Positions 25,068 to 30,502 of a DNA stretch of 64,000 nucleotides are shown piece by piece. Below the pieces are notes generated by a model that ran no database searches, was not told the DNA's origin, and saw only the letters and a program-made list of their open reading frames with translations. The stretch's first letter is position 1; every line of letters begins with the position of its first letter. This DNA is from Candidatus Iainarchaeum sp. (GTDB lineage Archaea > Iainarchaeota > Iainarchaeia > Iainarchaeales > GCA-2688035). The stretch lies in assembly GCA_017610205.1 (NCBI GenBank), contig JAFCCL010000006.1:58553-122552 (forward strand). The letters run 5' to 3'. A program made the position numbers and the translations under genes.

Positions 25068-27932
25068 ATGGCAAAAAAAAGGATTTTGGAACAATTTGAC
25101 CTCAAAAAAGAGGAAAGCGTAAGGCGTTTTTGGAAAAAGGACCAAATTCCTGAAAAGGCAAGAAAACAAAGCCAGAAGCAAAAAGAACCCTTTTATTTTA
25201 TGGACGGCCCGCCCTATGCAACCGGGCACATTCATATGGGAACTGCCTTAAACAAGGTTTTGAAAGATGTTGCAATGCGTTCCAAAAGAATGCAGGGATT
25301 TAATGTTTTTGACAGGCCAGGATACGACTGCCATGGGGTTCCAACAGAAAAAAAGGTTGAAGAAAAACTTGGCTTTAACAACAAACAGCAAATTGAAGAA
25401 TACGGAGTTGACAAATTTACAGAGCAATGCAGGCATTTTGCCACACAATTCATTGAAGTAATGAACAAAGAATTTGACAATATTGGAGTCTGGATGGATT
25501 GGAAAAACCCATACCTTACATTAGACGATGATTACATTGAAGCAATCTGGGGGTCTTTCAAAAAAGCCGATGAAAAAGGACTTCTTTACAAAGGGCTTTA
25601 CCCAGTGCACATTTGCCCACGCTGTGAAACAGTTGTTGCATTCAACGAAATTGAGTATACAAAACAAACAGATGAAAGCATTTACGTAAAATTTCCAGTA
25701 AAGGATGCAAAAGAAACATTTCTGGTAATTTGGACCACTACTCCCTGGACACTGCCTGGAAACACAGGCGTAATGGTAAACCCAAAATTCGATTACGCTT
25801 TTGTAAAACTAAGCAATGGCGAAACATGGATTGTTGCAGAAAAAAAAGTACAAAACTTAATGGATGCAATTGAAGCAGGCTATGCAATTGAAAAGATAGT
25901 AAAAGGAAAAGAACTTGAAGGAATGCAATACAAAAATCCATTGCAGAAAAAATTAAAATTGCCAGAACTTGAAAATGCTTACAGAGTTGTTATGAGCGAA
26001 AGATATGTCAACCTTGATGAAGGAACAGGACTAGTGCACTGCGCACCAGGACATGGCAAAGAAGATTACGAGGTTGGAAACAAAGCAGGACTGCCTGCAA
26101 TTTCACCGGTTAAATTAAACGGCTTGCTAAAAGAAGAAACAGGAAAATATGCAGGAAAGAAATGCAGAGTTGTTGACAAGGAAATTATTGAGGATTTGGA
26201 ATATGACAAAATGCTAGTGTACAAACACGAGCACACACATGATTACCCAGTGTGCTGGAGATGCAAAAGCCCTCTTTTAATGCTAAGCGTAAAACAATGG
26301 TTTTTGCAAATAAGAAGCATTCAGGAAAAAATGCTTTCATTAAACAAAGAAGTCAATTGGACACCGGCATGGATGAAGGACAGAATGCATAACTGGCTTG
26401 AAAGCATAAGCGACTGGCCTATTTCAAGAGCAAGATACTGGGGAACACCACTGCCAATATGGGTTTGTGACAAGTGTGAAAGCAAAAAAGTTATTGGAAA
26501 CAGAAAAGAACTCAGGCAATTAAGTGGTGTGAAAGAAATTGAAATGCACAAGCCAGGAATTGACAAAATTGAATTCGGATGCAGTTGCGGAGGAACAATG
26601 AAAAGGGTTCCGGAAATTCTAGACGTATGGTTTGATTCAGGAGTAAGCAGCTGGGCAGCATTGGGATTTCCAGAAAAAAAGGAATTGTTTGAAAAATTCT
26701 GGCCAGCCAATTTAAACCTTGAAGGAACAGACCAGTTTAGAGGATGGTGGAACTCGCAATTGATTCTTTCAACAATTTGCTTTGACAAGGCACCATTTGA
26801 AAACATTTTAGTGCATGGAATAGTACTGGACCTTCAAAAGAAAAAAATGTCAAAAAGTGTTGGCAACATTGTACAACCAAAGGAAATAATTGAAAAATAT
26901 AACAGAGACTACCTTCGCTATTATTTAGTAAGCACAAGCAAGGGAGAAGACTTTGCATTTTCATGGGATGCGTTTAAAGACATTCACAGATTCTTCAATG
27001 TATTATGGAACAGCTACAATTATGCCTTGCTTTACCTGGACATTGACCTTGAAAAGGCGGAAAAAATTGAATTAAAGGGACTGGAAGCAGAGGACAAATG
27101 GATAATAAGCAAGGTTGAAAGCTTGACCAAAGAAACCCTAAACGCTTACAACAATTTTACTTACTTTAAAGCAACAGCAGCAATAGAAGAATTTGTTTTA
27201 GAAGAATTAAGCAGAACCTACATCAAACTTGTAAGAAACAGGGAAGACAAGGAAAATGTAAACAAAACCCTGTCCTATGTTCTTGGCAAAATACTAAAAA
27301 TTATTGCACCAATCACCCCGCATATTGCAGAATACATTTACCAGGGATTTAAATCAGGCAAAATGCCTGAATCAATTCACCTGATTGAAATTCCACTGCC
27401 TGATGCAAAAAAGATTGACAAAAAGCTCGAAGCAGAATTTGAAAAAACAAAACAGGTTACACAGGCAGTGCTTTCATTAAGGGAAGAAAACAAGCTAAGG
27501 AGAAGATGGCCACTGCGTTCTCTTACAATAGTATCCAAAACAGGAAAAGAATTAAGTCACGTTAAAAAAGTTCTTGAAAGCAGCTGCAATGTGCAAAAAG
27601 TTTTGCTTGACAAAAAAAAGCCAAGAAAAGGAAAATACGCAGAAAAGGAAATAGAGGGCATTAAAGCATTTCTTGAAATTGACGCAGACCAGGAACTAAA
27701 AGAAATCTGGGAACTGCAGGAACTAAGAAGAAAAATACAGGATTTAAGAAAGCAGGCAAAGCTCATGCCAGGGCAAAAAGCAAAATTAAAAATTGCCTGC
27801 AGCAAGCCGGAATTTTTGGAAAAATTCAAAAAAGAAATTGAAACAGGAACAAACACAGAATTGGACCAGACAAAGAAAAAGCCCTCAGAAAAACTCCTTG
27901 AAAGGAAATTTGCACTACAGATTGTGAAGTGA
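25068..27932 (+). CDS. ileS: Isoleucyl-tRNA synthetase
   Basis: 954 residues. Class I motifs: HIGH-type GHIHMGTALN near the N-terminus and KMSKS in QKKKMSKSVGNI. The IleRS-type editing domain (TTTPWTLPGNTGVMV), WFDSGVSSWAALGFP and the C-terminal anticodon-binding region are all present. Cys motifs (CPRCE, CWRCKSPL, CDKCESKK with CSCGG) suggest bound zinc. It charges tRNA-Ile, including the UAU tRNA encoded just upstream. HicA starts five bases after its stop. Confidence 0.97.
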   Translation: MAKKRILEQFDLKKEESVRRFWKKDQIPEKARKQSQKQKEPFYFMDGPPYATGHIHMGTALNKVLKDVAMRSKRMQGFNVFDRPGYDCHGVPTEKKVEEKLGFNNKQQIEEYGVDKFTEQCRHFATQFIEVMNKEFDNIGVWMDWKNPYLTLDDDYIEAIWGSFKKADEKGLLYKGLYPVHICPRCETVVAFNEIEYTKQTDESIYVKFPVKDAKETFLVIWTTTPWTLPGNTGVMVNPKFDYAFVKLSNGETWIVAEKKVQNLMDAIEAGYAIEKIVKGKELEGMQYKNPLQKKLKLPELENAYRVVMSERYVNLDEGTGLVHCAPGHGKEDYEVGNKAGLPAISPVKLNGLLKEETGKYAGKKCRVVDKEIIEDLEYDKMLVYKHEHTHDYPVCWRCKSPLLMLSVKQWFLQIRSIQEKMLSLNKEVNWTPAWMKDRMHNWLESISDWPISRARYWGTPLPIWVCDKCESKKVIGNRKELRQLSGVKEIEMHKPGIDKIEFGCSCGGTMKRVPEILDVWFDSGVSSWAALGFPEKKELFEKFWPANLNLEGTDQFRGWWNSQLILSTICFDKAPFENILVHGIVLDLQKKKMSKSVGNIVQPKEIIEKYNRDYLRYYLVSTSKGEDFAFSWDAFKDIHRFFNVLWNSYNYALLYLDIDLEKAEKIELKGLEAEDKWIISKVESLTKETLNAYNNFTYFKATAAIEEFVLEELSRTYIKLVRNREDKENVNKTLSYVLGKILKIIAPITPHIAEYIYQGFKSGKMPESIHLIEIPLPDAKKIDKKLEAEFEKTKQVTQAVLSLREENKLRRRWPLRSLTIVSKTGKELSHVKKVLESSCNVQKVLLDKKKPRKGKYAEKEIEGIKAFLEIDADQELKEIWELQELRRKIQDLRKQAKLMPGQKAKLKIACSKPEFLEKFKKEIETGTNTELDQTKKKPSEKLLERKFALQIVK

Positions 27933-28517: not shown

Positions 28518-29432
28518 ATGGAAAAAATCAAGGATATTGAACTAAACGGAAAAAATTCAAAAGAAATGGTCAATGAAATGAAAACAGTTGGCTTTCAGGC
28601 AACTCATCTGGCACAAGCTGTTGAACTTATAGAACAAATGAAAAAAGAAAACGCAACAATATTTTTGGGTTTTACAGCAAACTTAATGGCCTCAGGATTG
28701 AGGGGAATTGTAAAAGAATTGTGCAAAAAAAAGTTTGTTGACGCAATTGTAACAACTGCAGGAAGCATTGACCACGACATCATCAAAAGCAGCATGCCAT
28801 ACAATCTTGGAACATTCCAGGCAAACGATGTAGAACTGCACCAAAAAGGCATTAATAGAATTGGAAACATTTTTGTTGAAACAAAAGGATTTGAGCTCCT
28901 GGAAGAAAAAATGCAGCAATGGTTAAAGGAAATTTACAGCAAAGAAAAAATTGTCAGCCCAAGCCAGCTTACAAAATTCATTGGAGAAAAGCTTCCAAAA
29001 GAAAGCTTTTTGCACTGGTGCAATACAAACAACATCCCGGTGTTCTGCCCGGGAATAACAGACGGGGCAATAGGAATGCAAATGTATTTCTTCAAACAAG
29101 AACACGCAGACTTTGCAATGGACGTAACAAAAGACATGAAAGAGCTGGCAGACCTTGTTCTGACAGCAGACAAAACAGGCGCAATAATTCTCGGAGGCGG
29201 AATTTCAAAACACCACATAATCGGCGCAAACATTCTAAGAGAAGGACTTGATTACGCGGTTTACATTTCAACAGCTGCAGAATTTGACGGAAGCCTTTCA
29301 GGAGCACAAACAAGAGAAGCAAAAAGCTGGGGCAAATTAAAGGAAAGAGGAAACAGCGTGCAGGTAAACTGTGACGCAACAATTGCACTTCCCCTAGTCG
29401 CTACTGCTTTAAAGGAAAAAGGAGTACTGTAA
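28518..29432 (+). CDS. dys: Deoxyhypusine synthase
   Basis: 304 residues. TTAGSIDHDIIKS, NIPVFCPGITDGAIG and the catalytic-Lys block AQTREAKSWGKLK define the family. It transfers the aminobutyl group of spermidine to a lysine of aIF5A using NAD. GAGGTG precedes the ATG by eight bases. The SpeD-fusion gene follows 59 bp on, so spermidine supply and use are encoded together. Confidence 0.95.
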   Translation: MEKIKDIELNGKNSKEMVNEMKTVGFQATHLAQAVELIEQMKKENATIFLGFTANLMASGLRGIVKELCKKKFVDAIVTTAGSIDHDIIKSSMPYNLGTFQANDVELHQKGINRIGNIFVETKGFELLEEKMQQWLKEIYSKEKIVSPSQLTKFIGEKLPKESFLHWCNTNNIPVFCPGITDGAIGMQMYFFKQEHADFAMDVTKDMKELADLVLTADKTGAIILGGGISKHHIIGANILREGLDYAVYISTAAEFDGSLSGAQTREAKSWGKLKERGNSVQVNCDATIALPLVATALKEKGVL

Positions 29433-29453: not shown

Positions 29454-29495
29454 ATGATTACAACCAGTACTTGCAGTAAAGAGGAATTACAATGA
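29454..29495 (+). CDS. Possible 13-codon upstream ORF (uORF) of the SpeD fusion gene
   Basis: ATG 29454 opens MITTSTCSKEELQ and stops at TGA 29493-29495, overlapping the main ATG (29492) as ATGA. ATGATTACA occurs at both starts, so a small duplication may have created it. Translation is unproven. Confidence 0.25.
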   Translation: MITTSTCSKEELQ

Positions 29496-30502
29496 TTACA
29501 GTAATAACTTATTTGCTAATGTTTGCCTGCGGAGCATTTACAAAATTCGCAGACAATTTAATTGACGAACCATTCAAATCAAAATTTCCATGGCTGCAAT
29601 ATGCCACAGCTGCAATTTACGGAATTCTTGCAGGATACCTTGCAACAGGCTCAACAGAATTTGCAACACTAATAATTGCAATCACAATAGGAGTGTTGTT
29701 TGCGGGAAAAATTGATTCAAAAGCACACCAGCTTGCAATTGCAATAATTTTTGTAACAATTGCACTGCGAGGTTTGCCCTCAATAGACATTCTTCTGCTT
29801 GCAGCCCTTGTTATTCTTGGATTTCTTGACGACGCCTTAAACGATTTTGTAGACAATGCAAAAGAAAAAGGAAAACACATTAATTCAACAATAAGACACA
29901 TTGTAAGCGCAAGGCTTTCACTGGAAATCGGAACACTTGCATTAGGGCTTTGGACAGGAAACTTTGTTTACTTCCTTTCAATATTTTCATTCGACCTTGC
30001 ATACAACATTGTGGACAAGGCAATGCCGTTGTTTATGAAAATGTTTAATCCAGAATACGGGCCACAGCTGGTTGTTGATTTGTACAAATGCAATGCAAAA
30101 AAACTAGGTGACAAAAATTTTATCAAAAAAACGCTTGTGGAATTTCCTGCAAAAATCGGAATGAGAAAAATTTCCAAAGCATTTGTCTTCAAATACAATC
30201 CAAAAAACAAGGAAGAACAAGGACTAAGCGCATTTGTGCTAATAGCAGAATCACACATTACAATACACACATATCCACTAAGGCAGCTTGCAAAAATAGA
30301 TATAGTTTCATGCAAGGGATTTGATCAGGAAAAGGCAGCAGCAATGCTAAAAAAAACATTCAATGCAAAAGAAGCAGAAGCCAAATCACTCTACAGGGGA
30401 AAACACTATCCAAAAGACCTGAAAAAATCAGCAGAACTTGCAAAAAAAGAGCGCTCAAAAAGCACAGTTTGCAAAACGCAGGCAACTATGCTGAAGGAGT
30501 AA
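29492..30502 (+). CDS. speD: Membrane domain fused to S-adenosylmethionine decarboxylase (SpeD)
   Basis: 336 residues. Residues 1-180 hold about five hydrophobic segments with FLDDALNDFVDNAKEKGK between them; this domain is not recognised. Residues 187-310 are a full prokaryotic SpeD: GPQLVVDLYKCNAKKL, LIAESHITIHTYP with the pyruvoyl-forming Ser254 and His259, and KIDIVSCKG with Cys274. SpeD makes the aminopropyl donor for spermidine. Ordinary SpeD is soluble and about 120-140 aa, so membrane tethering is novel. It follows the spermidine-using deoxyhypusine synthase. Confidence 0.85.
   Translation: MITVITYLLMFACGAFTKFADNLIDEPFKSKFPWLQYATAAIYGILAGYLATGSTEFATLIIAITIGVLFAGKIDSKAHQLAIAIIFVTIALRGLPSIDILLLAALVILGFLDDALNDFVDNAKEKGKHINSTIRHIVSARLSLEIGTLALGLWTGNFVYFLSIFSFDLAYNIVDKAMPLFMKMFNPEYGPQLVVDLYKCNAKKLGDKNFIKKTLVEFPAKIGMRKISKAFVFKYNPKNKEEQGLSAFVLIAESHITIHTYPLRQLAKIDIVSCKGFDQEKAAAMLKKTFNAKEAEAKSLYRGKHYPKDLKKSAELAKKERSKSTVCKTQATMLKE

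Follow-up and report, generated by a model that had tools for sequence, protein, structure and literature searches.

A novel archaeal membrane domain fused to a SpeD-family decarboxylase and paired with deoxyhypusine synthase in DPANN archaea

Introduction

SpeD homologues in the genomes lacking SpeE are arginine or ornithine decarboxylases, those of DPANN archaea included (Li et al., 2023, PMC10407285). Among them, SpeDA is a pyruvoyl L-arginine decarboxylase that evolved from SpeD, and one of the SpeDA enzymes is of Diapherotrites (PMC10407285). In Haloferax volcanii, agmatine has been proposed as the substrate of deoxyhypusine synthase (DHS), with a ureohydrolase acting later (Prunetti et al., 2016, PMC5178350). 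This model has not been reconstituted in vitro, and the Haloferax DHS has lost a His along with spermidine binding (PMC5178350). An enzyme of the homospermidine pathway in Thermus couples two agmatines (PMC10981699).

The gene analyzed here joins an N-terminal membrane domain, which we name NTM, to a SpeD-family domain and lies next to a DHS gene. The SpeD half resembles SpeDA in the SpeD fold, in the self-processing Ser/His/Cys, and in its genomic setting, which has no SpeE but includes an enzyme that consumes agmatine and, nearby, a DHS-family gene. On the other hand, no fusion to a membrane domain has been reported for SpeDAs (the word “membrane” is absent from the text of PMC10407285), and SpeDAs cluster with speY (homospermidine synthase), whereas the partner of the fusion scores as a true archaeal DHS. 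The pathway of Haloferax is similar in comprising an arginine decarboxylase (predicted here), an agmatinase-like protein near aIF5A, and DHS without spermidine synthesis, but the decarboxylase is of the PvlArgDC type there; PvlArgDC is absent here and the membrane-fused SpeD would replace it. The canonical class 1b SpeD of Thermotoga maritima agrees with the fusion in fold and catalytic residues; the fusion differs in a loop insertion, SCK after the active-site strand, a Glu72 that is not kept, its position outside the clade of canonical enzymes, and the lack of a SpeE partner. Two SpeE-like proteins of Haloferax with an N-terminal transmembrane domain (HVO_0255 and HVO_B0357) likewise place a polyamine-type enzyme behind a membrane domain, but they belong to another enzyme family, their seven-helix membrane domain is unrelated to NTM, and their activity is doubtful. 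Finally, SpeD occurs in natural SpeD1-SpeD2 fusions in Omnitrophica and Desulfotignum (PMC10407285), in which the partner is a second SpeD homologue, neither a membrane protein nor DHS.

A survey of the literature on DHS, DPANN archaea, and membrane SpeD fusions, which covered mainly open-access journal papers, yielded no precedent. The catalytic domain and the pathway outline are of already known kinds; what lacks a precedent in the searched, mainly open-access literature is NTM as a family, together with how often it pairs with DHS and its joining to SpeD. No system that couples the formation of hypusine to the membrane is known to us. The FESNov family linked to DHS (PMC10849945), found in Thorarchaeia in a dys-rpl35a-elp3 cluster, appears unrelated to NTM.

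Results

The fusion gene and its locus

The window, i.e., the whole stretch of 64,000 nucleotides analyzed, comes from the genome of a Diapherotrites archaeon (1.37 Mb; 92% complete), in which the only SpeD found is the fusion. The closest named relatives of this genome are Diapherotrites, archaeon GW2011_AR10 among them. The intact ORF of the fusion encodes a protein of 336 aa, with membrane helices (approximately 185 residues) joined to a SpeD-family domain. The features of the locus are as follows.

25068..27932, + strand: long ORF of 954 aa, read as isoleucyl-tRNA synthetase; syntenic neighbour of the DHS-fusion pair within the same family
28518..29432, + strand: DHS of 304 aa, ending 59 nt upstream of the fusion; PF01916, PRK01221, and TIGR00321, with SWGK and KHH motifs
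29492..30502, + strand: fusion ORF, NTM plus C-terminal SpeD-family decarboxylase; full-length orthologues in 15 other distinct genomes
29492..30046, + strand: NTM domain, residues 1-185, polytopic membrane; model pLDDT 92.6, conservation over 88 homologues
30068..30400, + strand: SpeD / AdoMet_dc domain, residues 193-303; PF02675 E 1.9e-26, fold match to T. maritima SpeD
30251..30253, + strand: Ser254 codon, where self-cleavage is predicted to yield the pyruvoyl group; aligned to T. maritima SpeD
30266..30268, + strand: His259 codon, invariant in the fusion alignment
30311..30313, + strand: Cys274 codon, invariant in the fusion alignment

The first-pass annotation had described approximately 180 N-terminal residues of membrane helices, a SpeD half keeping Ser254, His259, and Cys274, and an adjoining DHS gene, and all of these were borne out. 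Residues 1-185 form hydrophobic helices, eight in the AlphaFold model, and the three catalytic residues are invariant in an alignment of eight fusions. The neighbouring gene matches PF01916 in a profile search (E 2.9e-109), passes the equivalog cut-offs of both PRK01221 (359.8 vs 350) and TIGR00321 (327.7 vs 304.25), and encodes the active-site Lys in the SWGK motif. An ORF of 953-962 aa upstream of DHS was found in G004, G005, G008, G009, G013, G002, and G028 as well; we doubt that the corresponding 954-aa ORF of the window belongs to the polyamine/DHS pathway.

Intact NTM-SpeD fusions were detected in 16 distinct genomes of three DPANN phyla, one of which, that of archaeon GW2011_AR10, is a closed chromosome. 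Besides AR10, the hosts represent further genera and families within the order of the window genome, one Aenigmatarchaeota genome, and two Micrarchaeota genomes, and four additional fusion genomes belong to the phylum of one of these two Micrarchaeota. The aligned fusions are 87% down to 40% identical to the window protein. DHS is directly adjacent on the same strand in 12 of the 16 genomes, and the other four have no DHS in the flanking DNA examined, which is cut by a contig end in one of them. In the two Micrarchaeota identified by name, DHS comes after the fusion; in the Aenigmatarchaeota genome and in Diapherotrites, DHS comes first. The existence and conservation of the fusion are confirmed, and its tie to DHS is much stronger than could be shown when the gene was first noticed. 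No fusion was found in plasmid and phage collections among the matches listed.

NTM family and its linkage to DHS

A search profile built from 19 NTM members matched 29 of the 87 genomes in the class of the window genome. Within the Micrarchaeota phylum it matched 97 of 301 genomes and within the Aenigmatarchaeota phylum 23 of 156, and NTM is present in Hydrothermarchaeota too. The majority of the copies stand alone, as genes encoding about 160-230 aa. It had been suggested to search the N-terminal domain alone and to build a structure model; modelled alone, the domain gave a confident fold (pLDDT 92.6, pTM 0.85, eight helices) with no relative in Pfam, NCBIfam, or PDB: none of the 19 members came near a Pfam or NCBIfam cut-off, the profile search against PDB gave no match, and the best Foldseek E-values were 0.41 (PDB) and 0.33 (BFVD viral models), with low TM-scores. 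PstC, ArtQ, and DUF3180 were rejected as relatives; they are far under the cut-offs and match one or two of the 19 members, most likely by chance similarity of hydrophobic sequence. As judged from these searches, NTM is a previously undescribed family of archaeal membrane proteins.

Eleven positions, namely G14, K18, D21, D25, K73, D75, D113, D/E114, R141, D168, and Y171, are conserved in at least 87% of the 88 distinct members, and nine of them are charged. Positive charges are concentrated near the C-terminus and in the loops that follow helices 1, 3, 5, and 6, and the loops between helices 2-3, 4-5, and 7-8 carry almost none, so that the positive-inside rule predicts a cytoplasmic location for the C-terminus of NTM and the SpeD half. 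In the model, the conserved charged residues would span from the middle of the membrane to that side. Such strong conservation of charge argues against NTM being a mere anchor. Known membrane hydroxylases use His clusters, and NTM was rejected as an archaeal deoxyhypusine hydroxylase because a single His is well conserved.

For 37 of the 88 distinct NTM genes, DHS is a same-strand neighbour at a distance of up to 300 nt, commonly with a 4-nt overlap; by our own estimate, a random gene in a genome of approximately 1,200 genes would adjoin DHS by chance in about 0.2% of cases. Another arrangement was found in G520 of the Aenigmatarchaeota phylum, in which SpeD and DHS are encoded in one ORF (L197:2027-3442, - strand; 471 aa in open frame; PF02675 1.5e-24, PF01916 2.1e-113) followed by NTM. 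Agmatinase, DHS, and the fusion are contiguous in G087, an arginase-family gene lies directly 5' of NTM in G195, and in G006 and G014 NTM adjoins a SpeD of canonical type in divergent orientation. The fusions, the adjacency to DHS, and the SpeD-DHS ORF beside NTM mark SpeD, DHS, and NTM as one functional unit in terms of gene organization, and NTM as a DHS-associated membrane protein family that is a separate gene in most of the archaea having it.

In the NTM phylogeny, 26 members with no DHS neighbour in the flanking DNA examined grouped together with 100% support, and the DHS-linked NTMs, including the fusions, were spread over several branches outside this group. The state “fusion” requires at least six changes on the tree, in which many branches are weakly supported, so that fusion, fission, or transfer is likely to have occurred repeatedly in the history of NTM-SpeD. 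The members of the 26-member branch neighbour KaiC and FAD-reductase genes or, in Hydrothermarchaeota, histidine kinase, KaiC-like, and cobalamin genes. This separate branch implies that NTM is not specific to polyamines. The charged signature is common to all branches, this one included.

Several of these loci have a recurrent gene order. In Hydrothermarchaeota (L080-L085), NTM lies beside a large KaiC-like ATPase, with histidine kinase and cobalamin genes following in L080 and a similar order in L082-L085. In L048, L050, L051, and L053 (G007, G016, G041, and G040, respectively), an NTM of the second branch stands between a gene of approximately 252 aa and an unknown one of approximately 125 aa; the former is a KaiC-like ATPase in L050 and L051, and an FAD-dependent reductase of approximately 410 aa follows the latter in L051.

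The single charged signature and the range of neighbours (histidine kinase, KaiC ATPases, geranylgeranyl-reductase-like, and cobalamin genes) would suit a membrane enzyme or sensor that serves several pathways, the fusion then giving the membrane state or a ligand control over the decarboxylase. We regard this possibility as rather unlikely: in the searches above, NTM resembled neither a family nor a fold of any known enzyme or sensor, and DHS is its largest single association. A transporter, either an importer of polyamine/agmatine or an arginine/agmatine exchanger, is similarly conceivable but doubtful. NTM would then supply DHS with its substrate, and SpeD would have been fused to it in lineages able to make the substrate themselves. 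This accords with the many genomes in which NTM adjoins DHS as a separate gene with no fused SpeD, with the conserved acidic and aromatic residues that line the helices, and with the lifestyle of these DPANN-type archaea, which are often host-dependent. On the other hand, the searches linked NTM to no family or fold of transporters, its conserved polar residues, confined to the cytoplasmic half in the model, do not cross the membrane, and the KaiC/FAD-reductase branch bears the same signature with no link to polyamines.

SpeD half and polyamine genes of the fusion hosts

The SpeD half matches PF02675 (AdoMet_dc) over residues 193-303 (92.9 bits against a cut-off of 25) and just passes TIGR03330, adenosylmethionine decarboxylase (79.1 vs 75.65). 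Ser254 aligns with the pyruvoyl Ser63 of T. maritima SpeD, to which the C-terminal half was matched by Foldseek (E 1.1e-7; TM 0.82 on target). In Diapherotrites and Aenigmatarchaeota, the fusions carry an inserted loop ahead of the cleavage site and read SCK instead of TCG, and the residue corresponding to T. maritima Glu72, presumably the binder of the AdoMet ribose, varies; the loop insertion is shorter in the Micrarchaeota fusions. Pro262 is kept in the fusions and may be the Pro that discriminates AdoMet decarboxylases (AdoMetDCs) in PMC10407285, where its position is shown only in a figure.

We analyzed a tree of 40 SpeD domains that contained five verified AdoMetDCs and, as the only possible proxy of SpeDA, HTVC104P, which is on a long branch and related by host to a verified pelagiphage enzyme. 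One clade, supported at 99/97, united four of the verified AdoMetDCs with the SpeDs that adjoin an aminopropyltransferase gene. All of the 16 NTM-fused SpeDs and the SpeD-DHS fusion were placed outside this clade. The SpeD of phage phiN3, the fifth verified AdoMetDC, was also outside on a long branch, and thus the position is not proof against AdoMetDC activity. A stand-alone SpeD in a 735-kb record of an uncultured phage (LR756501.1; L137:4986-5363), approximately 41% identical to the fused SpeD, was outside the main AdoMetDC clade as well and is possibly an arginine decarboxylase.

Ornithine decarboxylase (SpeDC) was rejected for the SpeD half, as the diagnostic Gln, Thr, Phe, and Tyr (PMC10407285), located by our own reading of three SpeE-fused SpeDC-like proteins, are all missing from the fusions. 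In the same archaeal order, ORFs of 414-438 aa with an N-terminal SpeDC-type (ornithine decarboxylase-like) domain were found in G052 (L049:4620-5864), G039 (L059:1123-2439), and G044 (L056:5174-6424). The remainder of the ORF in G052 reads as spermidine synthase, and a separate canonical-type SpeD lies beside the ORF in G052 and G039, apparently making up a compact route from ornithine to spermidine.

The gene inventory of the hosts relies on family searches in incomplete genomes, to which all the absences below refer. The proposal that SpeD feeds spermidine synthesis was not supported: no ordinary SpeE (spermidine synthase), the partner that the first-pass annotation had suggested looking for, was found in any of the 12 fusion hosts searched, and the fused SpeDs are outside the main AdoMetDC clade. 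The PF01564 matches in the hosts are small unrelated methyltransferases or ORFs of 490-720 aa with a long hydrophobic N-terminus, the latter resembling the SpeE-like proteins of Haloferax. The branched polyamine synthase BpsA is absent in 11 of the 12 hosts, the exception being G004, and the window genome, 92% complete, yielded neither ordinary SpeE nor BpsA. G004 appears to hold two SpeD systems in one cell, as it has, in addition to the fusion, a stand-alone SpeD that adjoins a gene resembling PLP decarboxylases and a domain of branched polyamine synthase (L060:4758-6374).

Ureohydrolase was found in nine of 10 hosts, with agmatinase as the best match in all of the six tested; the agmatinase cut-off was passed in two of the six, and the copy in the window genome scored lower (156.2 vs 174.3). 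All of the 10 hosts possess aIF5A, which is close to the ureohydrolase gene in G008, G013, and G028. PvlArgDC (pyruvoyl arginine decarboxylase) is absent in 10 of 10 hosts. PF02784, the sole PLP decarboxylase fold covered by the search, was found in three of 10 and is absent in the other seven, including the window genome. The latter fits the context of SpeDA, as it possesses an agmatinase-like gene and lacks SpeE, PvlArgDC, and PF02784. The His (in KHH) that the Haloferax DHS lost along with spermidine binding is kept in 37 of 40 DHS sequences. Agmatine supply for TiaS, an agmatine-using tRNA enzyme, was rejected as the reason for an arginine decarboxylase because searches of eight hosts yielded no TiaS.

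The SpeD half is rather probably an L-arginine decarboxylase similar to SpeDA, as gauged from the absence of SpeE and PvlArgDC, the agmatinase-like gene, the tree position, the precedent in PMC10407285, and the missing ornithine diagnostics. That it is instead a true AdoMetDC, with an unrecognised aminopropyltransferase making spermidine for DHS and the membrane domain only localising the enzyme, seems unlikely. The catalytic Ser/His/Cys and Pro262 are kept, TIGR03330 is just over its cut-off, the His of DHS is the spermidine-linked one, and G004, G008, G013, and G028 possess membrane-fused SpeE-like proteins that might serve as the aminopropyltransferase. However, the SpeE-like protein of L116 reads SEPSNP, in our own reading, at the site where we take the expected catalytic motif to be DSSDP, the BpsA of G004 has its own SpeD, Glu72 is not conserved, and the hosts and the tree provide neither an ordinary SpeE nor a place among the SpeDs linked to aminopropyltransferases.

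Separate genes in relatives had been named in advance as a sign of an assembly or frameshift join; NTM does exist widely as a separate gene, and a fusion-like frame in contig C51 of G002 is interrupted after 18 residues of SpeD, close to the end of the contig, yet we give practically no credence to an artefact, because the linker and both domains are conserved intact across 16 distinct genomes of three phyla, one of them a closed chromosome. As for the broken frame of G002 (L038:5748-6601), there is another copy in the bin, on contig C120, and strain mixture or a sequencing error may be involved.

Discussion

The fusions and the pairing with DHS suggest that the modification of aIF5A is organized at the membrane in these archaea, and it probably starts from arginine, as far as gene content can tell. 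As we infer the substrate, the role of NTM, and the site of reaction, the SpeD half would work on the cytoplasmic face of the membrane and decarboxylate arginine to agmatine, which the agmatinase-like ureohydrolase and DHS would turn into the aminobutyl group on aIF5A. This conversion may proceed via putrescine or, as proposed for Haloferax, DHS may take agmatine with the ureohydrolase acting afterwards. NTM would hold the pathway at the membrane, and a predicted conserved charged pocket in it, open to the cytoplasm, may bind or move the cationic substrate. The whole model, namely a self-processing, membrane-anchored arginine decarboxylase of the SpeD fold that forms a unit with DHS, is tethered by NTM, and serves to make (deoxy)hypusine on aIF5A, has in our judgement an even chance of being correct. 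The passing of TIGR03330 and the PF02784 decarboxylase in three hosts count against arginine as the substrate, and the spermidine-linked His kept in most DHS sequences counts against the direct use of agmatine by DHS.

More broadly, we tentatively propose that deoxyhypusine synthesis in DPANN archaea is associated with the membrane with NTM as a core partner of DHS, and that in some lineages NTM took up an arginine decarboxylase of the SpeD fold, giving a spermidine-free route from arginine that a membrane-bound complex would carry out. The finding bears on how archaea without spermidine modify aIF5A. The two fusion arrangements (NTM-SpeD beside DHS and SpeD-DHS beside NTM), together with the widespread pair of DHS and NTM, point to possible missing components of this modification, and provide a small set of proteins on which a spermidine-free route to modified aIF5A could be tested directly.
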